Source: a virus
Direction: 5' to 3' (one strand)
Virus record (IMG/VR): IMGVR_UViG_3300010885_047252
Span: 1 to 64,000 of that record
DNA length: 64,000 nt
The notes beneath the pieces were generated by a model. It did not search any database and was not told the DNA's origin. It saw only the letters and a list, made by a program, of their open reading frames with translations. How positions within the stretch are numbered: position 1 is the stretch's first letter; every line of letters starts with the position of its first letter. A program made the translations under genes and the position numbers. This document shows positions 7,031 to 39,873 of this stretch, piece after piece.

Positions 7031-8543
7031 ATGGTATCAAGAGAAGAAAAAATGGACGTTGTTGCTGAGTCTCTTTTAAGGGATGAAAACCATCCAGATC
7101 CAGCAAAAGCAGAATTTAATAGAAGATGGAACGAACAGGTTCTTAAGGATAGTACGAGCTCTAATAAGGCAGCTCCATTCGGAGGAATGAGCGACAGAGC
7201 AATTCAAGATGAAATGTACTCCGATGCTAAAAATACTCCCTTAACTGCTAAAGTAACAGAAGAGGTTTCTGGCAAATCTCCAGTCTATCAAACAGCAGAT
7301 GACTTGGTTAAAGATTTTACCACTAAAGCTTCTAGTGCACAAGCTAATAAAGCTGGAGATATCCTAAAAGATATTTTTGATAAAACAGATTTTGCAAATA
7401 AACAATTTGATATTCCCGGCTCAACAAGACTTGTCACCGGCTCTGATGTACTGGGTAAACTTTCTGGCATAGAAATGACTGATCAAATAGGAGGAGTAGC
7501 AGCCTACAATCCAGGAAGTGGAAGAATGCAAATAAACCCCAACCTACTAGGGGTACTTCAACCAGAAGAAATAGCTACTACTTTTACTCATGAATTATTT
7601 CACACAGCAGCTGATGCATCGGGTTCGTTAGATGCGGAAAGATTAACTAGAGCAACCTCTCCAGGAGTGATGTCACTCGAAGATGCTAAGTATCTTGGAC
7701 AACAAGAAGGAATAGCAGATAGCTTTTCTAAACGGATTGATGGAAGAAGCTGGTTATAAGCCAGGAGCTAGTTTGTATGATACTCGCTTAGATATTAAAG
7801 AAAGGCAAATGAGATCACAAGGAGCAAGCATTTCAAGAGGAGAAATAAAAAAGTATTCCTTCATAGATGCAGATATTAATCCTGATATAAGACCTGGCTT
7901 TGGTACCTACTTTGGCGTGCCTGCAGACGTTGCATTCTCGCAAGATCCTGCAGTAATGGAAGCTATAGAAAAAAGTCCAGCAATATCCGCCATGAGAGAG
8001 GGGTATGAGTCTACTGTTGGATCTCATGGTGCTCAAGTATCAAGGGCAAATGCTACTAAGCATGTTCCTTTAGTGGATGAATATGATACTGGAGCAAAGT
8101 CCGCTGAAGTGATAAAACCAAAAGCACCACGAAAACCAAAACCAGGAGACTTCCTAATAGATGCAGAAGGAAGAACAACAGTAGTTCCACCAGAACCATT
8201 AAATGCTCCAATAAAATACGGAGATCTTGCAAAAAGTGCTAAGGCAACAGAGGCTGCAGCCCCAACTATTACAGCAAGTATAGAGGGTGTAGCCGAAACA
8301 GTAGCTAGTGGAGGAGCAGTTAGGGCTGAAGCTGCTATAACCCATTCAGGTTCAGCTGCTTCAAAGGCATCCCATGTAGCTGCATCTATTACTGCACCAA
8401 CTGCTGCAAGATCTACTCGCAGTCTAATGGACAACGCTTTAGAAGTAGGACAGAAAGTAACTAGAGGTCACTTGGGTGCTACTGCATTAGGTGTTGCTGC
8501 TGCTGGATTATTATTTGGTTATGCTAATAGAGATAAAAATTAA
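7031..8543 (+). CDS. HExxH metallopeptidase-like virion protein, +1 frameshift at CGGA
   Basis: ATG at 7031 after ggagc. The first frame encodes 234 codons to CGG at 7733 and would stop at 7757; the +1 frame opens after the stop at 7713 and runs to 8543. Joining at CGGA (7733-7736) gives about 503 aa. Residues about 170-235 hold a zincin-type site: FTHELFHTA (HExxH) and a downstream EGIADSF glutamate. The shift follows just after this site. The remainder has a Pro/Lys/Ala-rich linker and a C-terminal hydrophobic segment (TALGVAAAGLLFGYA). CGG at 7733 is the only in-frame CGG. Possibly a virion-associated protease. Confidence 0.65.
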
Positions 8544-9550
8544 TCTCTCCAGAGCCACTGTGGATTTTGCTTAGTCCACTCTACTGTTAGTTCCAAAGAC
8601 TTTTCTAGTGGCATTGGGGCAACCCATCCAGCATCTGCAAGCTTTGTTCCATCTAGTGCATAACGAAGATCATGTCCTGGTCTTGTTGTGTGGAAGTCTT
8701 GGAACTCAAACTTAAGTTCTTTGCCCCAGTACTTTGCTACAAGTTCTGCCATCTCTAGGTTATTAATTTCTCTCTCACCAACAATATGATACTTGTCTGG
8801 TCGATCTGCATTTGGATAATCTATTGCAGGAAGATTCTTTAAGATAAATACTAAAGCATCAGCTTGGTTTCTTGCGTGCAAGTAGAATCTTGATCCAATA
8901 TTCTCAGGAGTGCCGTGAATTGTCATTGGGATATCCTTCTCAAGACAATACATAATCTTTGGAATAAACTTCTCAGGGTCCTGACGCTCACCAATAATAT
9001 TCATTGTGTTAGTAATTACTACTGGAACACCAAAGGTACGCCAGTAAGATATGCATGCAGCTTCTTGCGCAGCCTTAGATCCAGAGTATGGGTTAGATGG
9101 AAGGATAGTATCCCATTCCTTGTGAGCATACCCCTTTGGAGCAGGGCCATACACTTCATCTGTTGATACGTGTAAGAATACTTCTGGCTTGATCTTGCGT
9201 GCAAGTTCCAGCATGTTAACAACAAGTGCTACGTTATTCATAATGAATGGTGCTGGGTCTGTGATTGATCTATCTACGTGTGAATCTGACGCCATAGAAA
9301 TAATATAATCAATGTGCCCAATGTCCTTTATCATTACATCAGAGAAAGGTACAGTAAGATCATGTGTAACAAGCTGAACACGGTGTCTGTTTGCTTCCCA
9401 AGAATTAATAGAAGTAATTCTATCTGTTACTCCACGATGACGGAAAGAGTCAGTGATAACTACATCCCAGTCAGTCGTCTTGAAGATGTGTTCTAAAGTA
9501 TGGTGACCGACGAATCCGCCAGCACCTGTGAGCAATACTCTCTTAGCCAT
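8540..9550 (-). CDS. NAD-dependent sugar-nucleotide dehydratase/epimerase
   Basis: A 336-aa extended short-chain dehydrogenase. Rossmann motif LLTGAGGFVGHHT (residues about 6-18), HVSTDEVYG, and catalytic Y-S-G-S-K near residue 150. Closest in layout to dTDP-glucose 4,6-dehydratase (RmlB) and UDP-sugar epimerases, acting on nucleotide-sugars in the cytoplasm. The STDEVYG segment favours the dehydratase. Likely alters surface sugars or supplies a sugar for virion or DNA modification (inference). Convergent with the frameshifted virion gene, overlapping by 4 bases. Confidence 0.85.
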   Translation of the reverse strand: MAKRVLLTGAGGFVGHHTLEHIFKTTDWDVVITDSFRHRGVTDRITSINSWEANRHRVQLVTHDLTVPFSDVMIKDIGHIDYIISMASDSHVDRSITDPAPFIMNNVALVVNMLELARKIKPEVFLHVSTDEVYGPAPKGYAHKEWDTILPSNPYSGSKAAQEAACISYWRTFGVPVVITNTMNIIGERQDPEKFIPKIMYCLEKDIPMTIHGTPENIGSRFYLHARNQADALVFILKNLPAIDYPNADRPDKYHIVGEREINNLEMAELVAKYWGKELKFEFQDFHTTRPGHDLRYALDGTKLADAGWVAPMPLEKSLELTVEWTKQNPQWLWRD

Positions 9551-14537: not shown

Positions 14538-15152
14538 TTATTTTTCTTCTTCTTGTATAAAAGTAACGAATGGTCCACCAGTGTATGGATCAAAAGTGGA
14601 AGCAATCTTTAAAGCTTTTAATGTCATAGTCTTTGCTTGAGTAGGTTTTATCTCTGACTTATTAGACATAATAGCACTCATTGCTCCAAGAGCATAAGAA
14701 GATCCAGTACCAAGAGCATATACCCTACTGTTGTCTGAGGTCCAAGAGTAGTCTCCGTCAACAACGTAAATACAACCATCGATTACAACAAGGATAGTAG
14801 AAGCGTGTTCTGCTATATGAGAAGAGGTGTCTGTTTCTGGAGCTGCATAGCCTTGATTCTCAAAACAAGCACGCAGTGAAGGTATAAACTTAGTAGTTAT
14901 AAACTGATCTAACTTAGAACCTTTAGTTCCCGGTGGAGGAATAGGTGGTTGAAATGCATGATGAAGAATGTTAATTGCTCTCATGTCTCCAGCAGCACCC
15001 AACAAGTACTTTCCATTCTTAGCAACCTTGCAAGATCCAGGGCCTAGTGTTGTGATCTGTGAAGCAAAACCGCCATCATCTATAGTAGAGATTCTAGAGT
15101 CTACAGAAACTGCTGCAAAACCATCTCCCTGAATCGCAATAATTGTAGTCAT
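14538..15152 (-). CDS. Proteasome beta/HslV-like Ntn hydrolase
   Basis: A 204-aa protein of the proteasome/HslV/Anbu superfamily. After Met1 comes TTIIAIQGDGFAAVSVDSR. With Thr2 as the nucleophile, D17 and R19 of the superfamily fall exactly in place. GPGSCKVAKNGKYLLGAAGD supplies the conserved Lys/Gly region, and ALGTGSSYALGAM with LKALKIAS...YTGG matches the C-terminal GSG.YA.AA and helix of HslV-like proteins. Expected to act as a self-compartmentalising threonine peptidase. No propeptide: Met removal alone would expose Thr. Its unfoldase is not obvious; an AAA+ protein lies 8.5 kb upstream on the same strand with a ubiquitin-like system. Confidence 0.75.
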   Translation of the reverse strand: MTTIIAIQGDGFAAVSVDSRISTIDDGGFASQITTLGPGSCKVAKNGKYLLGAAGDMRAINILHHAFQPPIPPPGTKGSKLDQFITTKFIPSLRACFENQGYAAPETDTSSHIAEHASTILVVIDGCIYVVDGDYSWTSDNSRVYALGTGSSYALGAMSAIMSNKSEIKPTQAKTMTLKALKIASTFDPYTGGPFVTFIQEEEK

Positions 15153-15213: not shown

Positions 15214-15369
15214 CTATTTATTAGGAGTATAGTAAAGAGAGCCAAATACTTTAAAAGCTATCTGAGAGACGTCTTTAGGGGTGGCAATTTTATTATAGCT
15301 ACGATAGTGAGGATTATCGTAGTTGTACTTATTGGTAGACTTTTTGTTTCTCTTATTTCTTCTAGACAT
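15214..15369 (-). CDS. Small basic peptide, 51 aa
   Basis: Start ATG at 15369 overlaps the previous stop (TAATG). Sequence MSRRNKRNKKSTNKYNYDN is extremely basic, then a hydrophobic C-terminus (IAFKVFGSLYYTP). Possibly nucleic-acid binding. Confidence 0.45.
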   Translation of the reverse strand: MSRRNKRNKKSTNKYNYDNPHYRSYNKIATPKDVSQIAFKVFGSLYYTPNK

Positions 15370-18739: not shown

Positions 18740-20017
18740 TCAAGCAGGAAAATGAGAATCTAGAAGATTGTCAATATGGTAATTAAGAGAAGAAGGAGCA
18801 ATAGGAGATTGAGCAATTCTATTTGTTCTCAAAAATTCAATAGATTTAGAAATAGCTAAGTCTAAAGTCTTTTCAGTATTTCTAGACTTATCAATGATAT
18901 ATCTTTTAAAAGCAGATGAACGGTAAAGATTATCTCTAGTCAATGAAGAATCTTCAGGTTCACAACCGCAACCATCGCAGCATGAACAGTCGGGATCATT
19001 ACATTCACAATCGCATCCGCTATCACAATGAAAGTCATACTCTGACTCTTCAGCTATAGTTATATTATTATCTTGAATATATTGATCAAAGAACTCATCT
19101 CGCATATTAGTGTAATCAAATTCTTGAAACATAAAATCAGAAATGCTGTAATTAGTCCAATTGATAGAAGAAACATGCTCTAAAGGAACCTGTTCCCAAG
19201 CAGACAAGAGAGCTCCAGAATGACGTCTATGTAAGCTTGATCCTATCTGATTAATGGGATGATCTTTTAAGAATTGATATGAAACTTTAGAAGCATCGGT
19301 CTTGAGGTATTGTTCAAACTGTTCATACTTATTAGTGTAAATCATCTCTGCTAAGTTCTCGGTTATATCAAAGTTAAATCCACTATTCCAAACCCAGTCA
19401 TAAGCAGAAGCCATAACTCCAGAAATACTTCTTGGATACTTTTCAATATCATCAATACTCTCAAAGAAAGGTCTACAAAGTGCACCACTACCAAAGAAGT
19501 TAAAGATTGGAGGAGCATAAACTGTTTGGTTTTTGTCAAACAAAGAAGTCTTAGTAAAGTACATTCTTACAGAAGTTAAACGCATATCTTTTGGATTGTA
19601 CATTGCGATATAAACTTGCCAAGGAATAGGTAGATAATATTCAACTTGAAGAGTATCTTCGTCAATACTATCTTTGCCGTCTTGACTTACATTAATAACC
19701 TTATAGGAAGGAGGACGTTCAAATACGACTAGACCATGAGACAAGTATCGAACTCCAGGAAAAAATATGTCTTCTTGAGAACTAACATCTTGGCATGATA
19801 TATATGAATTTAAGAAATTAAGATAATTAGAATAATCATGTTCGCCAGCTTGAACAGTACTTCCAATAATCTTTTTATATTTAATAGTAGATTTAGGAAT
19901 CTTATCACCACGATCATGCCAAACGTTAGAATCATGAGGAGGATTAACGCACTCAATAAAGTTTGGTTTTTCAGAATCAGAAAGATCGTTAAAAATAAAA
20001 TCAGTTGGCGTTAACAT
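18740..20017 (-). CDS. E2-like/PRTRC-B-like protein with Cys-rich insert
   Basis: About 425 aa from the ATG at 20017. The N-terminal half matches the Prok-E2_D (PRTRC protein B) pattern: VVFERPPS, YLPIPWQVYIAMY, then TVYAPPIFNFFGSGALC. The last Cys in the G-x-x-C tip is the candidate thioester site of this predicted E2-like family. The C-terminal half contains a striking Cys-rich stretch at about residues 335-360 (CDSGCDCECNDPDCSCC) likely to bind metal. One of three paralogues in the cluster. Expected to work with the E1 and Ubl encoded 5-8 kb upstream. E2 activity is a family prediction. Confidence 0.6.
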   Translation of the reverse strand: MLTPTDFIFNDLSDSEKPNFIECVNPPHDSNVWHDRGDKIPKSTIKYKKIIGSTVQAGEHDYSNYLNFLNSYISCQDVSSQEDIFFPGVRYLSHGLVVFERPPSYKVINVSQDGKDSIDEDTLQVEYYLPIPWQVYIAMYNPKDMRLTSVRMYFTKTSLFDKNQTVYAPPIFNFFGSGALCRPFFESIDDIEKYPRSISGVMASAYDWVWNSGFNFDITENLAEMIYTNKYEQFEQYLKTDASKVSYQFLKDHPINQIGSSLHRRHSGALLSAWEQVPLEHVSSINWTNYSISDFMFQEFDYTNMRDEFFDQYIQDNNITIAEESEYDFHCDSGCDCECNDPDCSCCDGCGCEPEDSSLTRDNLYRSSAFKRYIIDKSRNTEKTLDLAISKSIEFLRTNRIAQSPIAPSSLNYHIDNLLDSHFPA

Positions 20018-21185
20018 CAGAGTGCCTATCGTTAAGTACAATGTATGGTTCAATTAAAGAATAATCTAAAGTAATATTATGATTAAAAGTAGTGTCATCT
20101 TTCTTGGAAAAATGATTTAGATAAACTTGAGAGATGATAAAAGGATTATCTATATGAGCACGAAGGTTAAAGTCACCGCTATTAGGATAGTTAGTTATAG
20201 TGACATTAGTTCTTATGCTTGAAAAGCTCTTGGAATCATTCTTATAACCATAAGATTCTAACAATCCAGGAACCTGTCTCATATAATAATAAGAATTGCT
20301 ATGAAGAAAATCCTCTACTGGCAAAGAAAAAGGCTTAGAATGTTTAATAATATTCTGTACTTCGTGACGATAGCCTGTATCGCCATGTCTTTTAACAGCA
20401 AGGTTTTTAAGGTGAGAAACAAAACCTAAGGTAGTATTTAAATCTAATTTAGACATTAGATAAATAAAGTTCTTATGAATTTCTGTATTGGTAAAACGAT
20501 ATCCGTTTGTATCAATAAATCTTTCAAGATTACTAGGAGCATTTTTATTAGAAACTAAATCGTCTTTAATATCATCAAAGTAATCCAGGCCTTGAACTTG
20601 AATTCCAAGATCTGAATTCCAACCAGCAAAATAAGAATTAAAGTAGAAATTATAAAGATCAAGGATAGAAGAGTCAGGAGTAAGACCTGCAGACTGAGGG
20701 CTATCTTGGCCCATGCAAACAGCCCCACTTGAACAGTTGGGAAAATAGCAAGGGATTAGATAGTCTGAAACAGAATCTATAGACTTATCATTAAAGTATA
20801 ATTCAAATTGAATACCGTGATTTGTAACGCTAATCTTAGATACACTCCAAGGCACCCAAACATAAGCGTCGTTTAAAGCTTTAACAGTTTTTCTATGCTT
20901 GTAAGATTTAGAAACAGAAAAATCTACAGGGATTTGAAAAGGAGGACGCTCAATTATATAGCATGTAGAATCAGAAGAAACATGTCGAACAGCCATAGGG
21001 AGAAGAGAGTAGTCTTTATCCAAAACAAGTAAAGAGTTAGACTTGTTAGCAATAGCAGCATTAAGGTTGTAAAGAGATGTAGTGTATTGGTGGATTACGT
21101 TATCCATTACATTGGTGCTACTAACGTAATTCAAATTAAATAAATAAGGATTATTATAAAGAGAGTAGTTAAAATAGCGCATCAT
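20001..21185 (-). CDS. E2-like/PRTRC-B-like protein
   Basis: A 394-aa protein. Contains the same core as its neighbour: CYIIERPPFQIPV, YVWVPWSVSKISV, GIQFELYFNDKS and FPNCSSGAVCMGQD, which matches the G-x-V-C-x-G tip of PRTRC-B/Prok-E2_D. Residues after about 190 are a family-specific helical tail. Overlaps the next E2-like gene by 17 bases. Function by analogy: accepting the ubiquitin-like protein from the E1. Confidence 0.6.
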   Translation of the reverse strand: MMRYFNYSLYNNPYLFNLNYVSSTNVMDNVIHQYTTSLYNLNAAIANKSNSLLVLDKDYSLLPMAVRHVSSDSTCYIIERPPFQIPVDFSVSKSYKHRKTVKALNDAYVWVPWSVSKISVTNHGIQFELYFNDKSIDSVSDYLIPCYFPNCSSGAVCMGQDSPQSAGLTPDSSILDLYNFYFNSYFAGWNSDLGIQVQGLDYFDDIKDDLVSNKNAPSNLERFIDTNGYRFTNTEIHKNFIYLMSKLDLNTTLGFVSHLKNLAVKRHGDTGYRHEVQNIIKHSKPFSLPVEDFLHSNSYYYMRQVPGLLESYGYKNDSKSFSSIRTNVTITNYPNSGDFNLRAHIDNPFIISQVYLNHFSKKDDTTFNHNITLDYSLIEPYIVLNDRHSDVNAN

Positions 21186-23626: not shown

Positions 23627-25231
23627 CTATCCTTTAATTGACCAGGAGTCAGATTTAGCTTTAGTTTTAGTTTGTGTAGATAGTATATCATCTATTTCAT
23701 TATACTGGAAACTGGAAGCCCAGTCCCAGTTCTCATATGCATAGCGATAAAGGTCTTTAATCATATCACGTTCTTTATTCCAAAGAATATTACGCATATG
23801 AGGAGCAGCCTTTATCACGTCAGAAGTATTCAACTGACGGTGTTCTGCAGAAACAATATTAAATTTAACTTCTTTAACTAAAGATTTAATCTCAGCACCA
23901 GTAAAATACTTGGTAGCTTCTGCTATAGCATCATAGTTAAATCCATCTTCAGGAAGATAAATTTTAATAATCTCTACACGCTCTTCAATAGAGGGTAGAC
24001 CAACAAAGAATATTTTATCAAATCGTTCTGCACGAAGCATCTCTGGCTTAAGGTGGTTCAGCTGATTAGCAGCACACATTAAGAATACATCGTTAGGAAG
24101 CTCTTGAAGGCCCGTAAGAAACTCACCATGAACACGATCGGTAGTACCACCGTCTACGTGAGATGAGCTTTGACCACCAGACATGTCACGACCAAACTCG
24201 TCAATCCAAACACAAAGTGGAGCCATAACTTTAATTTGTTGAAAGACTGCACGCATGTTTTGCTCTGACTGACCAATGAATGAATTCATTACTTGACTCA
24301 CGCCAGTGCGAGCTAGGTCTAAGCCAAGAGCACTAGCAGTAGCCTCGCATATAGCAGACTTGCCAGTGCCAGGTATGCCAACAGTTAGCATACGACGAAT
24401 AGGTTGAATGCCAAACTTTTCGGCTTCTTGGGGATTGTTCCAAAAATAAAGATTACGCATAATAACAGTTTTAATATTGTCAAGACCACCAATTTGGTCA
24501 AACGTAATCTTAGGCTTAATGATCTCAAGAATACCATTCTTTTTAACATTAAGCATTTTAGCTTCGTAAACATAAGCAGAATCAATAGTGCCTTTATCAA
24601 GAATAGACATAAGACACAAATTAATGAATTTAGATTCACTCAATCCAAGGCCAGCATTAGCAATCTCTTTAGCTTTTGCAGAATCAATAACTTCGCCATT
24701 AGTAGAAACATGTATGTGATGAAGTATTTCATGAAGCTCATGAATAGTAGGATAAAGATCTTCGTGAACATAGAACATGTGTGCAATAGGCTCAGGGACT
24801 GGAGCAGCAGACAATACAATCATTTGAAGAGGCATTGAGTTAAGATCATCATTCTTAAAAGAAGAACGATATTGAGAATGTAATGAAGAAATCAATCCTG
24901 CAAACTGAACAGAAAATTCAGCAGGGTCTCCAACAAGATGATGGATAAATGTTTTAGATTTGTTTTTAGTTTCTTCTGAGTTTAACATATAGTCAAAAGA
25001 AAGACTAAGGTCAGAAGTAGTTTTAACTATCTTCTCACCTGGAATTTCTGGATGATCAATAGAAACAAGAATTGGTTTCCATTTGCCGTCTACGTACTTA
25101 GAGAAGCCTTCGTGATTAATAGTAAAGTATTCTCTTTTGGCATAAGAAGTAATATTTTCTTCTAGGCGATACGGGTCAGTAGTCTTAACCCATATCGCTG
25201 GAATGCCCAATTGTATTTGCTGAAAAAGCAC
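23627..25231 (-). CDS. AAA+ ATPase (Ycf46-like)
   Basis: A 534-aa protein. The N-terminal 250 residues (AIWVKTTDPYRLEENI...) resemble the region preceding the AAA module in Ycf46-type ATPases. AAA domain: FDQIGGLDNIK, Walker A GIPGTGKS (about 284-291), Walker B LCVWIDEFGR (about 339-348), sensor 1 CAANQ and the R-x-E-R-F-D arginine-finger region, followed by a small helical lid (FTGAEIKSLVKEV). A hexameric remodelling or unfolding ATPase is expected. It sits between the Ubl gene and the E2-like genes, so it may act on conjugated substrates or feed the Ntn hydrolase; this is inference. Confidence 0.8.
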   Translation of the reverse strand: MLFQQIQLGIPAIWVKTTDPYRLEENITSYAKREYFTINHEGFSKYVDGKWKPILVSIDHPEIPGEKIVKTTSDLSLSFDYMLNSEETKNKSKTFIHHLVGDPAEFSVQFAGLISSLHSQYRSSFKNDDLNSMPLQMIVLSAAPVPEPIAHMFYVHEDLYPTIHELHEILHHIHVSTNGEVIDSAKAKEIANAGLGLSESKFINLCLMSILDKGTIDSAYVYEAKMLNVKKNGILEIIKPKITFDQIGGLDNIKTVIMRNLYFWNNPQEAEKFGIQPIRRMLTVGIPGTGKSAICEATASALGLDLARTGVSQVMNSFIGQSEQNMRAVFQQIKVMAPLCVWIDEFGRDMSGGQSSSHVDGGTTDRVHGEFLTGLQELPNDVFLMCAANQLNHLKPEMLRAERFDKIFFVGLPSIEERVEIIKIYLPEDGFNYDAIAEATKYFTGAEIKSLVKEVKFNIVSAEHRQLNTSDVIKAAPHMRNILWNKERDMIKDLYRYAYENWDWASSFQYNEIDDILSTQTKTKAKSDSWSIKG

Positions 25232-25353: not shown

Positions 25354-25605
25354 TTAGCCCTTTTCGCCAGCACGGCGATGAAATTCAACATTGTCGTTAG
25401 CTTGAATGACATAGCTTTCGTCAAGCTTGTCTTTGCCCTTGTAAGCAATTGCGTCAGAGCTGATGCCCCAGAGCTTGCTGAACTGCTCACGTACTTCAGC
25501 AACTGTTTTACCAGAAACTGGAGCTGGCTGATTATAAACTCCGTAACGAACGTTAGCTACGCTACTTGATGATTGTGGGTTATTTTGGTTAGATGTAAGT
25601 TCCAT
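25354..25605 (-). CDS. Ubiquitin-like protein (PRTRC-C-like)
   Basis: An 83-aa protein with a beta-grasp pattern: VRYGVYNQPAPV (strands 1-2), TVAEVREQFSKLWG (helix), AIAYKGKDKLDESYVIQANDNVEFHRRAGEKG (strands and tail). The C-terminus FHRRAGEKG closely resembles the ending of PRTRC system protein C, a ubiquitin-like member, and finishes in Gly as expected for E1 activation. A 20-residue Gln/Asn/Ser-rich N-terminal tail precedes it. Good RBS (ggagaag). Lies 13 bases downstream of the E1-like gene. Confidence 0.75.
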   Translation of the reverse strand: MELTSNQNNPQSSSSVANVRYGVYNQPAPVSGKTVAEVREQFSKLWGISSDAIAYKGKDKLDESYVIQANDNVEFHRRAGEKG

Positions 25606-25618
25606 TTTACTTCTCCGT

Positions 25619-26365
25619 CTATATTGATATTAATGTGTTGACCATACGGTTGTATGGTTGAGCCATGCCCAATCCAAGATCAAAGTAGATCTCTGATTGT
25701 TCAGGATTTTGATTGGAAACAAGCGTGTGCTGGATCCGACCAAGAATAAATGCAGCAACTGCCATATTAGTTGCTAAGATTTGAGTTCCACCTTCGACCT
25801 CTGCGCGTTCTTGGCAAGACATCTCGCCAGGATTACGATCAGGTGGGTTCTGGTATTCAGGATGTGTCTCTACTGGATGTGCAGTGACATCTTGTCCATT
25901 GCGACGCTGATAATGATAAAGACTACCAAATAGGTTATCGTCATTACCACCAGTAAAAACATCTACGTTGTCGAGCTTTGAGGCTGCATCGAAAAGAATT
26001 TTACGAGCAGAGAAGTTATCAACAACAGCAAGGACTATGTCACCTTCAGTAATTAACTGAGAAGCTTTAATTTTGCCAGCTTCTTCATCAACATCAGGAT
26101 GATCATCAGAAACAACCCACTTAGGGATTGGAATGATCATAGTGCTACTAAACTGTTTAGAAAGCTCTAAAGCTTTAACAGAAGCTTTATTGCCCATCTG
26201 ACTAAAGTCTTGACGTTCAAGGTTCTTAGCTTCATAGTGATCACCATCAACGATGATCAAAGCAGAACCAGGAAACTTCCACTCAAGAAGTCTAACGACT
26301 CCTGATGCAAGCCAAGTGCCGATACCACCAGCACCGACCATTACAACTCTTTTAGGATTACTCAT
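25619..26365 (-). CDS. E1-like/ThiF-family adenylyltransferase
   Basis: A 248-aa protein. Nucleotide-binding VVMVGAGGIGTWLASG at residues 8-23, IIVDGDHYEAKNLERQDF (about 37-54, the D-x-D...N-x-x-R-Q signature), GNKASVKALEL, and a C-terminal GEMSCQERAEVEGGTQI whose Cys (about residue 180) matches the conserved Cys of PRTRC ThiF proteins. Would adenylate the C-terminal Gly of the adjacent ubiquitin-like protein using ATP and pass it to a Cys. Contains an in-frame CGG-A (25736-25738) read as a triplet. Overlaps the JAMM gene by 8 bases. Confidence 0.85.
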   Translation of the reverse strand: MSNPKRVVMVGAGGIGTWLASGVVRLLEWKFPGSALIIVDGDHYEAKNLERQDFSQMGNKASVKALELSKQFSSTMIIPIPKWVVSDDHPDVDEEAGKIKASQLITEGDIVLAVVDNFSARKILFDAASKLDNVDVFTGGNDDNLFGSLYHYQRRNGQDVTAHPVETHPEYQNPPDRNPGEMSCQERAEVEGGTQILATNMAVAAFILGRIQHTLVSNQNPEQSEIYFDLGLGMAQPYNRMVNTLISI

Positions 26366-27986
26366 AATATGAACCTTCGTATGCTATGTTAGAGAATGGT
26401 GAAAAATCTTTACATTCTTTAATGGGATTTTGAATTGGTGTTTTTGTAGAGGCAAACTCTAAGATAGACTTAAAGTATGGCTCACAACTCTTTGAATAAT
26501 AATATTCACAATTAAGACATCCAGCATTTCTGTCATAGACATCATATGGATGAGCCTGATCAAAATCCATAACATCAGAGTAAAGGACAGTGTTAAGACA
26601 GATGCACCTATATGCATCTTCTACAGGAATATTACAGCAAACTGTAAATCCTTCGTCAAATCCCTGATAATAAAAATTATCAAGCTCTTCAATTTCAATT
26701 TGAGAATCAGTAATTAAATTGGGAATATAATCATCAGACTTATCAGCTATGCGCAAAAGAGCGTCTTCACTGTTATCATTTTTAATCCAAAGATAATAAT
26801 TAACATTTGGATCTTTTTTGCGTTCACGAAGATATCGAGCACCAGACATCAATATTTCTGAATAAGAAGATTGAAGATCGCACATTAGAATGTCGCAATT
26901 AGGACAAATATTAACAAGCATTTCAGCAAGAGTAAAAGGATAAGAACAGGATAAACATTCTGCATCTTTATCAGAATAATCAACTTCAGCTATAATAATG
27001 TACGGATCAACGTCTTTTAGTTCAGGAAGCTCCTGAAGCCGAGAGTCTCCCTTAATCGTACCAGCTGGCGTATAGACCCGCTGTTGAGTTGCTGGCTGGA
27101 GTGGCGTAGACTGTGCCACCTGAGTAACCGAACCCCCCGCTATAGGGGGGAGTACTTTTTTTACTTTATCAGTCCAAGCAACAACCTCTGGATCAGGGTC
27201 TTTGGTTATTGTGAACGATTCAAAAACATCTTCAGGCTTAAGAGTATAGGCTGTTCCAGCCATCTGAAGCTCGATGTGATACTGAGTTGCGCCGTTGTTA
27301 ACAGAAGATTGCCAACCATAGGTTATATGGACACCATCAAAGTCTGCTTGGTCAGCATGGTCGGTCCCAGAGGCATATGCTGCCATCTTAGGATGACTAT
27401 GGACAGAGCCAACAATGAGTACATGATCTGGCTTCTGATCTACAATGCTATCGGCTTCATACTTACAGTGAACTGAAGTATTAGTTTGCTCAGGGACTAG
27501 GACTCCCCAACCTTGAGAAGTGCCTTCAAAGTTTGGATCAAAGGTCAATAGAACAATAGATTCAGTACCGTGCTGAGCATCGACAAGTCGGAAGAACTCA
27601 TCAAGCTTATCTATAATTACTTTAGGAATTGGAGGAAGAGAATACTCTGCCTCAACACGAACTGCTTCAAAGTCGTAAATGTCTTCGTTTTCAACTACGC
27701 TTACAGAACGACCAACAAAGTTATTAACAACTTTTACAATGCTGCTATTGTAGTCAGTAACAGTTTCGGTCCAAGGTGCAACGTAAGGATTAGTTTTAGC
27801 CTTGTGCTCGACCTTGCGACTTTCTGCAACGTTACATATGAGATAATAAATATTGAATCCGAGGAATTCAATTTCTTCCTCAATGTTTTCCCTGTTAGCC
27901 ATGAAGCAGGGGACTCCAGATTTAGTCCAGAAGTAAGTTAGATCTTCTAACTTAACATCCATGTATGTTATATTTTCAGTGTCCAT
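26358..27986 (-). CDS. JAB/JAMM isopeptidase with C-terminal zinc ribbons
   Basis: A 542-aa protein. A complete JAMM zinc motif H-S-H-x7-S-x2-D (in GSVHSHPKMAAYASGTD, residues about 193-210). The N-terminal third resembles the extension of PRTRC protein A. After a Gln/Thr-rich linker the C-terminus carries zinc ribbons (CLSCSY...CPNCD; CLNCEYYYSKSC). JAMM enzymes cleave ubiquitin-like proteins from conjugates or process their C-termini. Encoded immediately before E1 and Ubl, completing a conjugation/deconjugation set. Two in-frame CGG codons (27039, 27078) are read normally. Confidence 0.85.
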   Translation of the reverse strand: MDTENITYMDVKLEDLTYFWTKSGVPCFMANRENIEEEIEFLGFNIYYLICNVAESRKVEHKAKTNPYVAPWTETVTDYNSSIVKVVNNFVGRSVSVVENEDIYDFEAVRVEAEYSLPPIPKVIIDKLDEFFRLVDAQHGTESIVLLTFDPNFEGTSQGWGVLVPEQTNTSVHCKYEADSIVDQKPDHVLIVGSVHSHPKMAAYASGTDHADQADFDGVHITYGWQSSVNNGATQYHIELQMAGTAYTLKPEDVFESFTITKDPDPEVVAWTDKVKKVLPPIAGGSVTQVAQSTPLQPATQQRVYTPAGTIKGDSRLQELPELKDVDPYIIIAEVDYSDKDAECLSCSYPFTLAEMLVNICPNCDILMCDLQSSYSEILMSGARYLRERKKDPNVNYYLWIKNDNSEDALLRIADKSDDYIPNLITDSQIEIEELDNFYYQGFDEGFTVCCNIPVEDAYRCICLNTVLYSDVMDFDQAHPYDVYDRNAGCLNCEYYYSKSCEPYFKSILEFASTKTPIQNPIKECKDFSPFSNIAYEGSYYE

Positions 27987-30267: not shown

Positions 30268-30663
30268 TTAGTATGGATTCATAACAGAAATTAATTCTTC
30301 AGTGTTAGAATATTTTTTTATAAGTAAGTCTAATTGTGTAGACCAAGTTTTAGTATTAAGGCCTTGTTGTGCAGCTATATTTAAAATGTATTTAAAATAT
30401 GTTTTTCTCTGTTTTGGAGTTAATCCACCCCAAAGACCATAAGCTTCTTGGTTAACCAAAGAAGTGTAAAGGCAATAGAATTGAACTGGGCAACCTTGAC
30501 AGTATCTCTTAGAAAGTGAACGCAGTATAGATTCTTTAGTATGAAAAAAATCTTCAATCTCAGAAGTAGAAAGACAAGAAGCTTTATCTTTCCAAGATGC
30601 TATAGAAGTATTTACATACTGTTGATGATGAATATATTCTTGAGTAACTTTTATTAAAGTCAC
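30268..30663 (-). CDS. WhiB-family iron-sulfur regulator
   Basis: A 131-aa protein. Four-Cys WhiB set: C in DKASCLS, then YCQGCPVQFYC (C-x2-C-x5-C), followed by the hallmark YGLWGGLTPKQR turn. WhiB proteins bind a 4Fe-4S cluster and usually act on the primary sigma factor; they are essentially confined to actinobacteria and their phages. Coupled by a 4-base overlap to the upstream gene and placed ahead of the Ubl cluster, which it may regulate (inference). Confidence 0.85.
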   Translation of the reverse strand: MTLIKVTQEYIHHQQYVNTSIASWKDKASCLSTSEIEDFFHTKESILRSLSKRYCQGCPVQFYCLYTSLVNQEAYGLWGGLTPKQRKTYFKYILNIAAQQGLNTKTWSTQLDLLIKKYSNTEELISVMNPY

Positions 30664-36619: not shown

Positions 36620-38203
36620 TTACTTTTTCTTACATTTAGAAAGTTTAAGATTACACTTGGTAGAAAACTGAACAGTTTTAATAGACTTAATAATAGGTTT
36701 ATTCTTGGGATAAATGTTTATTCTAGTGCTATAAGCTGTTTTAGTACCATAAATGGTGAGCCCATAAAATTGACAATAGTCAATTGCTGAAGCAGGAACT
36801 AAAAGCTTATAGGAGTGAAAAGAATATACATCTTGTTTTGGAATAGTATAAGTATTTAAGTTATTACAGAACAATTCATAATGAGTTATAAATTGTTTAT
36901 TTTGATAAGGGTCACGATATTTAACCCAAACAAAGTTTTTGTATAAACCATTTAAATCAAGAAGAATAGGTTTTGGAATAGGAGGTAAAGTTAAAGGAGG
37001 AGGAACAACAGTAGTAGTTGTTGATGTAGTGACTGGGACAGGAAGAGTAGTTGTAGTAGAGGTAGTAGATGTAGTGATAACTACAGGCAAAGTAGTGCTA
37101 GTAGTAGTAGGTAGAGTTGTTGTGGTAGTTGTTGAAACAACTGGAAGAGTAGTGGTAGTGCTAGGAATTGTAGTAGTAGACACTGGGGTATCTGTAAACA
37201 TTGATGTAAAATCTAGTCTAGGTACAGATAGATTTGTATAAGCATCTTTAGAGGTTTTAGATGCAGATATAAAATCTGAAACAACTTTATCAACAGATTG
37301 AACACCAAACTTAGAACGATAGACTGCAAATGCTCCAGCTACAAATGGAGTAGCCATAGATGTACCTGAAGCCGATTGATATGCAGCACCAGTAATAGAA
37401 GATAGTATTCTAAATCCAGGTGCAGATAAAGTGGTATATTTATTTACATTTGAAAAATCTGCAATTAAAGATGTATTAGTATAAACAGCAGCAACAGAAA
37501 CAGCATGGGATATACAAGCAGGAGCACTCATGCCATAAGCATAAGAGTTACCTGAAGCTATGACTGTAGCTATATTAAGATCTTTAAGAGATTTAATAGC
37601 AGAAGTCATTTCTGGAATATAAGCGTCACAATTTGTAGTAAAAGTTTTAGATCCACCAAGAGACATGTTAATGGAAGTTATGCTGTACTGTGAAGAAATT
37701 GAATTAACCCAATTTAAAGCTTTAATGATATCATCATCATAAGCAGCTCCTGATGAATCAAAAACATTAATAACAATAATTTTGGCTTGAGGAGCTATTC
37801 CATGAAAGCTAGCATTACTGCCAACAACAATGCCAGCAACATGGGTGCCGTGCCAGTGAACTGGTTTAGCTGCACCAATTCCAATCATAGAGGTAGATCC
37901 ATTAGGGCATTTAGCAGCAAAGCAAGCTTCTAAAGCTACACGTCCTTGAAGAAATGGATGAGTAGAATCTACACCAGTATCCATGATAACTACATAAGAA
38001 TCTTGACCTTTATAATTAAGATCATAAGGTAAATTAGCTCCCACAAATGGGATAGATTCAGCTAAACTAAAAGTAAACTTAACTGGACCGTTTGCACGAG
38101 CAACATCAAAAGTGGTAGCATTGAGATTGTTTACTCTGTATATACAAATAGAAAACAATAATGCAGTAACTAAAAATAGTGATTTAAATTTAGAAATTTT
38201 CAT
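36620..38203 (-). CDS. Secreted subtilisin-like serine protease (S8)
   Basis: About 527 aa from the ATG at 38203 (TAATG overlap with the helicase stop). Signal peptide or anchor KFKSLFLVTALLFSICIY. S8 triad: Asp in VVIMDTGVDSTHP, His in HWHGTHVAGI, Ser in SASGTSMATPFVAG, with the oxyanion Asn in ASGNS. A Thr-rich linker of about 60 residues (STTTTTTLPTTTSTTLP) follows, then a C-terminal domain of about 100 residues. Such linkers are common in secreted proteins of aquatic actinobacteria. It would act outside the cytoplasm. A host-like cargo gene, unusual in a phage. Confidence 0.88.
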   Translation of the reverse strand: MKISKFKSLFLVTALLFSICIYRVNNLNATTFDVARANGPVKFTFSLAESIPFVGANLPYDLNYKGQDSYVVIMDTGVDSTHPFLQGRVALEACFAAKCPNGSTSMIGIGAAKPVHWHGTHVAGIVVGSNASFHGIAPQAKIIVINVFDSSGAAYDDDIIKALNWVNSISSQYSITSINMSLGGSKTFTTNCDAYIPEMTSAIKSLKDLNIATVIASGNSYAYGMSAPACISHAVSVAAVYTNTSLIADFSNVNKYTTLSAPGFRILSSITGAAYQSASGTSMATPFVAGAFAVYRSKFGVQSVDKVVSDFISASKTSKDAYTNLSVPRLDFTSMFTDTPVSTTTIPSTTTTLPVVSTTTTTTLPTTTSTTLPVVITTSTTSTTTTLPVPVTTSTTTTVVPPPLTLPPIPKPILLDLNGLYKNFVWVKYRDPYQNKQFITHYELFCNNLNTYTIPKQDVYSFHSYKLLVPASAIDYCQFYGLTIYGTKTAYSTRINIYPKNKPIIKSIKTVQFSTKCNLKLSKCKKK

Positions 38204-39873
38204 TAGTATCTTTTCTTGTAATCTATTTTGTTTTGAAGCCATTTAGGCTTAGGATTGTTCTCGTAGTAACGAGAGATGATTTGACTTGCCATACCTTTGG
38301 TCATATCTGACGTAATAGGTATTCCAATTCTTTTTAAAAGTTTTTGTTGAGAATCTGTTGGAGAATCAACTCTCCAAGCAGCAGATGAATCAAGTAGTGC
38401 AACAGATGCTGCACGGTTGTTTTGAATCCATTTGTCTGAACGAGCAAATGCTTCTCTAATGTCTGAAACAGTACCTAAAAGGGTAGTTGTTTTAGCATGG
38501 TTGTCATGTATAGTTACATTCCAACGACCAAGAGTATCGCACTTAATGCGCATATACTCTGTATTGTTTAAGCCAAGATGGTAATCGTCTTCACCAATTT
38601 CAGCCCAAACGAGTTTGGAATACTCCTGTACAACAGGATTAGGAGGAGGAGGCATAAACAAGTTAATGCGGGTATAAGCTATTTTGATGTCATCAGGATT
38701 GAGAACACGAACAGCTTCACCTGGACAGTAAGCCTCAAGTTCTTCAAACTTTTCAGCGACGTCTGTTAGACTCTGTCCTTGTAAATCGAATTCTGGTGGG
38801 AGACCCAACAGAGTAGGAAGGCCAATAGGTTTCTTGCCTATAGTGGTGTCTGCAATATCTATAATTGTACAATGCTTTTTACTTTCATGTAGGCGAGTTC
38901 CTCGTCCAACTATTTGAGTATAAAGTAAAGTTGATCGAGTAGGTTTTGCTAGAATAATAGTTTGAAGAGATGGCTCATCAAAGCCTTCAGTCAAAACGCC
39001 AACATTTACAATAACGGAAATCTGGCCAGTTGCAAACTGAGCAAGGATGCTTTCTCGTTCTTCTCGTGGAGTTGTTCCCACGATTACGGCGGTTGTTACC
39101 GACGCTTGCTTAAAGGATAAGGCCAAGTTTTCGGCGTGTCTGACGCCGGATGCGAATACAATGGCTTTCGTATCCATTGCCAAATTGCGATAAGTGGCAA
39201 CGACAAAAGCATTACGCTCAGGAGTATCCACTTTTTGTTCAAGCTGATCTTGGGCATATTCACCATTCCTTATTTCTACATCAGAGATGTCTACGTTTGT
39301 TTTAACTCTATAGCCGACGAGAGGGCAAAGCCATCCGTCTTTAATTAGATCTTGTATGGATTTATAGTATACTATTTCTTCAAATACGTCAATTAACCTA
39401 GTTGAATCTGACCTCTGTGGCGTTGCAGTAACGCCCAAGAGGAAATCAGGAGAGAAATAATCAATAATTCTTCTATAAGTAGGAGCAGCAGCATGATGGG
39501 CCTCATCTATAACTATGGTTTTAAAGTAATCTTTAGGATAAGCTTCAATACGAGGAGTATTGTTTCTACCTAAAGTAGCAACACTGGCAACGACTACGTC
39601 GACATGGCCAGCTTTGCGTTCTGCTTGTTCAATTTCTACAACAAGATTAGGATTAGAAGCCATAATCTTATTGCGAGCTTGTTCAAGTAATTCAGCTCTA
39701 TGAGCTAAGACTAACATTGGCAAAGAATCTTTGCGCAATATGGGAAGATGTGAAAATAAAATAGTTTTACCTGCACCCGTAGGTAATACAACAAGTTGTC
39801 TGTTAATGCCATTAGCTTCATTAGCTATAATAGCATCGAGTGCCTCTTGTTGATATGGGCGAAGGGAGATCAT
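38203..39873 (-). CDS. SF2 DEAD/DEAH helicase
   Basis: A 556-aa protein. Motif Q/I RPYQQEALDAI..VLPTGAGKT, motif Ia LAHRAELLEQA, motif II VIDEAHHA, motif III GVTATP, helicase C domain with FDEPSLQTIILAKPTRS and VGRGTRLH (motif VI). The organisation matches RAD25/UvsW-like and type III restriction-like SF2 helicases that remodel branched or duplex DNA. Probably involved in phage replication or recombination. Its stop overlaps the protease start. Confidence 0.9.
   Translation of the reverse strand: MISLRPYQQEALDAIIANEANGINRQLVVLPTGAGKTILFSHLPILRKDSLPMLVLAHRAELLEQARNKIMASNPNLVVEIEQAERKAGHVDVVVASVATLGRNNTPRIEAYPKDYFKTIVIDEAHHAAAPTYRRIIDYFSPDFLLGVTATPQRSDSTRLIDVFEEIVYYKSIQDLIKDGWLCPLVGYRVKTNVDISDVEIRNGEYAQDQLEQKVDTPERNAFVVATYRNLAMDTKAIVFASGVRHAENLALSFKQASVTTAVIVGTTPREERESILAQFATGQISVIVNVGVLTEGFDEPSLQTIILAKPTRSTLLYTQIVGRGTRLHESKKHCTIIDIADTTIGKKPIGLPTLLGLPPEFDLQGQSLTDVAEKFEELEAYCPGEAVRVLNPDDIKIAYTRINLFMPPPPNPVVQEYSKLVWAEIGEDDYHLGLNNTEYMRIKCDTLGRWNVTIHDNHAKTTTLLGTVSDIREAFARSDKWIQNNRAASVALLDSSAAWRVDSPTDSQQKLLKRIGIPITSDMTKGMASQIISRYYENNPKPKWLQNKIDYKKRY

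Follow-up and report, generated by a model that had tools for sequence, protein, structure and literature searches.

Does a phage genome that encodes a proteasome-like peptidase close to a set of ubiquitin-like conjugation genes use them together, as one proteolytic pathway, or do they represent separate modules of the same genome? We examined this question in a 64,000-nucleotide stretch of the IMG/VR virus record IMGVR_UViG_3300010885_047252 (positions 1 to 64,000; hereafter the window). A first-pass annotation had proposed that an N-terminal nucleophile (Ntn) hydrolase of the proteasome/HslV kind is encoded there beside an AAA+ ATPase and ubiquitin-like (Ubl), E1 and JAMM genes, and that together these could form a phage proteolytic pathway. 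Previous work described PPH and AAH as proteasome homologues of Group I that tailed phages have spread and for which no partner ATPase is known, and could give phage proteasome homologues neither a function nor a partner (Fuchs, Alva and Lupas 2021, PMC8665760); our literature searches recovered no paper later than this survey on the function of phage PPH or AAH. Our analyses support both the peptidase and the cassette as genuine. They favour a stand-alone HslV/BPH-like phage peptidase, which we regard as the probable reading, over a dedicated ubiquitin-proteasome pathway of the phage, which we regard as unlikely.

Table 1. Positions and main characteristics of the window genes discussed in the text.
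Feature	Position	Strand	Characteristics
NAD-sugar epimerase/dehydratase-like protein	8540..9550	-	
Ntn threonine peptidase, proteasome/HslV/BPH fold	14538..15152	-	204 aa, Met1-Thr2
Co-inherited protein	18740..20053	-	sub-threshold Prok-E2_D resemblance
Cdc48/PAN-like AAA+ ATPase, single-ring	23627..25231	-	Walker A/B intact, FIG pore loop, no HbYX tail
Ubiquitin-like beta-grasp protein	25354..25605	-	83 aa, C-terminus RRAGEKG
ThiF/E1-type adenylating enzyme	25619..26365	-	closest to PRTRC ThiF model, below cut-off (33.3 vs 144.75 bits)
JAMM/JAB metallopeptidase	26358..27986	-	HxHx7SxxD (HSHPKMAAYASGTD); closest named model PRTRC protein A, below cut-offs (19.4 vs 101.8 bits)
WhiB-family protein	30268..30663	-	PF02467, 2.5e-14
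Presumed secreted subtilisin-like protease	36620..38242	-	DTGVD, HGTHVAG, SGTSMATP; Thr/Ser-rich tail
Presumed TerC-like membrane protein	63200..63973	-	

A proteasome-fold threonine peptidase

The peptidase reading frame opens with an ATG preceded by a ribosome-binding-like AAAGGG, and its product begins MTTII; the plus strand of the same interval is broken up by stops. The Pfam Proteasome family (PF00227) matches the protein at 24.4 bits, above its cut-off of 22.4, and the phage library family phrog_1040, 'peptidase HslV family', matches it at 4.6e-21. An AlphaFold2 model, built from a shallow alignment of phage relatives (21 rows), reached a pLDDT of 86 and a pTM of 0.84 and has the four-layer alpha-beta-beta-alpha fold of proteasome-fold Ntn hydrolases, and comparison of this model using Foldseek and VIA-align recovered HslV, the bacterial (beta-proteobacterial) proteasome homologue BPH and 20S beta subunits at Z 18-19. 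Thus, the proposed identification as a proteasome/HslV-like Ntn hydrolase is borne out by family matches and by predicted structure.

The catalytic residues are those expected of an active enzyme of this fold. Counting Met1 as residue 1, proteasome Thr1, Asp17, Lys33 and Gly47 correspond to T2, D18, K42 and G55, with the Lys33 equivalent at K42 because an 8-residue insertion shifts its position; in mature numbering these are T1, D17, K41 and G54, together with GTG at 147-149 and D187. All 41 distinct homologues keep M1, T2, D18, S19, K42, G148 and G150, and 39 of the 41 keep the oxyanion G55 and D188, a degree of conservation far above chance. The spacing of Thr2, D17 and R19 given in the first-pass annotation holds in mature numbering (T1, D17 and R19 after removal of Met), but R19 itself is not conserved (26 R, 11 Q, 3 L and 1 A among the 41 homologues), and that list had omitted the Lys33 and Gly47 equivalents. 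Among close relatives dN/dS is about 0.02-0.03, which indicates purifying selection; values against the window copy are 0.07-0.22, in comparisons where synonymous sites are near-saturated. The gene is maintained, and the enzyme that it encodes is probably active.

A family profile search placed BPH first, at full length (1.7e-11), and HslV second, and among the top Foldseek rows the highest TMq likewise belonged to BPH with HslV close behind. The best NCBIfam model was HslV, far under its cut-offs (29.8 vs 137 and 28.0 vs 157.75 bits). Because the closest relatives are HslV/BPH-type peptidases, a closest kinship with unrelated Ntn amidases, which the annotation had named as one refuting outcome, falls away.

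A ubiquitin-like cassette on the same strand

The neighbouring genes are also what they had been taken for, given the Ubl fold, the ThiF match, the HxHx7SxxD motif and the Cdc48-like matches, and they constitute one tight cassette, with JAMM, E1, Ubl and AAA+ contiguous in all relatives examined. The predicted Ubl fold, of moderate model confidence (pLDDT 73), matches ubiquitin and ubiquitin-like proteins across nearly the whole match list, with Z up to 9.0, and its C-terminus is kept in relatives, reading RRSGEKG in a few. Two relatives (L068:8281-8535 and L072:10763-11017) encode a Ubl that ends in GEKGSL rather than GEKG; to be activated, such a protein would first have to be trimmed, for which the JAMM peptidase is a plausible candidate. 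The nearest solved relatives of the AAA+ protein are Cdc48/p97 D2 domains. Its tail carries a conserved aromatic motif (SWSIKG, SWDLKV, GFKW or TWK), and an HbYX docking tail is absent from the AAA+ C-termini read in the window and in relatives. We do not claim an E2 for the co-inherited protein between the peptidase and the cassette, because its Prok-E2_D match reaches only E 0.086 (0.036 in a relative). One 267 kb contig (G003; L003, L063 and L094) holds two divergent copies each of the Ubl cassette and the peptidase gene, and may be a chimera in which two phages were assembled together.

Linkage of the peptidase and the cassette

The arrangement had been described correctly: all of these genes lie on the minus strand, and the peptidase gene is downstream, 8.5 kb from the AAA+ gene and 9-13 kb from the Ubl, E1 and JAMM genes. 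Under a dedicated pathway, E1 would charge the Ubl, targets would be tagged, JAMM would recycle the tag, and the Cdc48-like AAA+ would unfold the target into a ring of the Ntn peptidase. Several observations agree with such a pathway besides the authenticity of all its parts and their shared strand. The distance between AAA+ and peptidase stays within 8.0-13.6 kb in relatives; one variant has many extra genes in between. Every E1-bearing contig also encodes the AAA+ (22 of 22) and 18 of the 22 encode the peptidase, the exceptions being two fragments of 14 and 21 kb and the pair G056/G057; when near-identical contigs are grouped, about 12 of 13 cassette sub-lineages have the peptidase. Seen from the other side, E1 is found in 6 of 44 peptidase-bearing viral contigs and AAA+ in the same 6, many of the others being short fragments; viral contigs in all of these counts may be incomplete.

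This linkage cannot be taken as proof of a pathway, because it can be traced to a single inherited phage segment from which the peptidase is missing in one lineage. The stretch from JAMM to the peptidase, including SSB and uracil-DNA glycosylase (UDG) genes, is collinear in cassette phages, and therefore the co-occurrence of peptidase and cassette represents block inheritance and is weak evidence of a joint function; SSB, UDG and other genes are as strongly linked to the cassette as the peptidase is, since the whole block descends as one. In the 193 kb G056 contig the whole cassette, with E1, Ubl and AAA+, is intact, and the AAA+ retains its aromatic tail motif, although the peptidase is absent from its own slot, which is bounded by homologues of the window genes at 15369 on the left and 11730 on the right and holds a 54-aa and an unrelated 121-aa reading frame. 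G057 similarly keeps the cassette, with E1, Ubl and AAA+, and has no peptidase, and in both the gene has evidently been lost cleanly and alone. In a tree of 41 Ntn proteins, those of cassette phages share one fork with a group of about 61% identity from phages without the cassette, and the order within this fork is not separated.

Each module occurs without the other

Related Ntn genes are found alone in at least six other phage kinds, beside unrelated genes. The complete 129 kb genome of DSL-LC01 has a copy of 47% identity and neither E1 nor a cassette-type AAA+. Members of the 61%-identical group have the gene between a metallophosphoesterase and a portal gene, and no other gene is common with the window within the 20 kb examined; in Pumpernickel, MTATph1, D'Alembert and Tunturi_5 it lies among tRNA, ligase or small unknown genes. 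A metallophosphoesterase directly precedes the peptidase in separate cassette-less contigs (L096:10861-12671, L021:2449-4281 and L127:4941-7009). Scans covering 84,980 genomes of bacteria and archaea recovered no chromosomal relative, the sole match being a phage-like contig in the bin of a gammaproteobacterial MAG. Phages ME3, KLEB27-3 and D69 have PRTRC-like or E1-like genes and no Ntn gene detectable by sequence, and none was found in mycobacteriophages and Rhodobacter phages that carry a related AAA+. For ME3, in which the sequence profile search found no Ntn gene, a BFVD entry has a proteasome-like predicted fold (E 7e-5).

A Ubl-directed pathway would put the peptidase wherever the cassette is, which is not the case in G056/G057, and the cassette wherever the peptidase is, which is not the case in DSL-LC01. 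Given that each part occurs without the other, that the linkage is no stronger than that of SSB and UDG, that the AAA+ lacks HbYX and that there is no HslU (no above-cut-off match in 14 peptidase- or cassette-bearing records, although the host could supply one), the joint pathway proposed in the first-pass annotation is not supported. We would still allow a small but real chance of some functional link between the peptidase and the cassette. It is improbable, though conceivable, that the Ubl/E1/JAMM/Cdc48-like AAA+ set tags and unfolds host or phage proteins for a proteasome-like phage ring, and that a host peptidase takes the place of this ring in the G056 lineage. Such a system would be the first counterpart of the ubiquitin-proteasome system to be encoded by a virus, and tag-directed degradation in viruses would then parallel the eukaryotic scheme, in which a tag, a segregase and a chambered protease work together. 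Phages that carry both modules, the cassette alone (G056) or the peptidase alone (DSL-LC01) offer a natural test of this idea.

A self-contained peptidase as the probable explanation

The evidence is most consistent with a self-compartmentalising threonine peptidase of the HslV/BPH type that probably acts without a dedicated ubiquitin-like tag. A Met-Thr start with no propeptide suggests that Met1 would be taken off by a methionine aminopeptidase of the host, leaving Thr1 exposed, where with Asp17 and the Lys33 equivalent it would act as the N-terminal nucleophile. By analogy with BPH, a tetradecameric double ring, and HslV, a double hexamer, the subunits may assemble into a closed single or double ring in which, during infection of the actinobacterium, peptides and unfolded polypeptides would be cut. 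A dedicated phage unfoldase is most likely absent, because helix H2 is followed by a long acidic loop, as it is in BPH; in the model, H2 spans residues 78-99, and the low-confidence loop at residues 100-116 aligns to the BPH acidic loop without a large gap. The gene would be a self-contained accessory gene that can move between phages alone and needs no ubiquitin-like tag, and the Ubl-E1-JAMM-Cdc48-like cassette would be a separate module of the same genome. Two observations count against this stand-alone reading, namely the retention of the peptidase in nearly all cassette sub-lineages, as a functional link would also give, and the presence of two candidate unfoldases in the same phages, the Cdc48-like AAA+ and a ClpA/ClpB-D2-like ATPase.

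It is also possible, though doubtful, that the protein is not a general protease and serves instead as a processing enzyme in capsid maturation, or as an Ntn-fold ligase or amidase. The former would suit its place in the 61%-identical group, where the portal gene follows directly and the major capsid gene a few genes later, and connectase demonstrates that a proteasome-type fold can act as a monomeric ligase (PMC8665760). We do not favour a capsid-maturation role, however, as the window gene sits in the SSB/UDG replication region and in DSL-LC01 other genes carry the annotation of capsid maturation protease; a ligase is disfavoured by the AlphaFold2 model, from which the connectase-type two-helix insertion between early strands is absent. 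Lastly, since the phages also encode a ClpA/ClpB-D2-like HSP100 ATPase, a ring fed by that protein or by a host ATPase is conceivable, and the AAA_2 and ClpB_D2-small domains, with (A/T)GF as a tripeptide close to where the ClpP-binding loop lies (in G001, G003, G045, G046 and G049), speak for it, but we judge this the least probable reading, because such a loop would point rather to ClpP, the gene is not adjacent to the peptidase, and the records searched from peptidase-bearing phages outside this lineage gave no HslU/Clp-like match.

The ClpA/ClpB-D2-like gene lies at L122:828-1892 (-) (G001:C1:46827-47891), with homologues in L121, L123, L124 and L125, and its product might hijack host ClpP.

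Host and other window genes

The WhiB-family gene of the window points to an actinobacterial host for this large virus. A WhiB gene is annotated just downstream of the peptidase in DSL-LC01, and a WhiB-like reading frame occupies this place in L031 and L127. The epimerase/dehydratase-like gene is 96% identical in G045, compared with 30-90% for most other compared genes, and appears to be either unusually conserved or recently exchanged. Two further genes, which we take to encode a secreted subtilisin-like protease and a TerC-like membrane protein, are listed in Table 1. The peptidases analysed here are well conserved as a set among phages of actinobacteria, hosts for which the 2021 survey found no AAH-bearing phage (PMC8665760).

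Comparison with known systems

The protein belongs with the phage proteasome homologues of HslV/BPH type that were reported in 2021. It shares with BPH (PDB 5OVS, 5OVU) the fold, the Met-Thr start without a propeptide and a similarly long acidic loop after H2, and it differs in being phage-encoded, in an identity of only about 20% and in an extra insertion near residues 22-38; the ATPase partner of BPH is not known, and the long acidic loop goes with the absence of an unfoldase (PMC8665760). With HslV it has in common the fold, T1/D17/K33/G47, a GSG-like turn and the C-terminal helix segment, but HslV works with HslU, as HslVU, whereas the phage that bears this peptidase has no HslU. PPH proteins are about 140 aa and lack H2, and we therefore reject that assignment for a 204-aa protein in which H2 is present. 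Assignment as a bacterial 20S beta subunit is also rejected, as TIGR03690 (20S_bact_beta) scores 17.0 bits against a cut-off of 191.9 and Thr directly follows Met1 with no propeptide. The cassette most resembles PRTRC-type Ubl/E1/JAB cassettes, whose ThiF and A proteins are the best-scoring models for the phage E1 and JAMM, and unlike these it has a built-in Cdc48-like AAA+. The Pup-proteasome of actinobacteria (Mpa/ARC with PrcAB) has the same chemistry and beta-subunit fold as the phage peptidase, whereas the phage tag, unlike that of the Pup system, is a beta-grasp Ubl.
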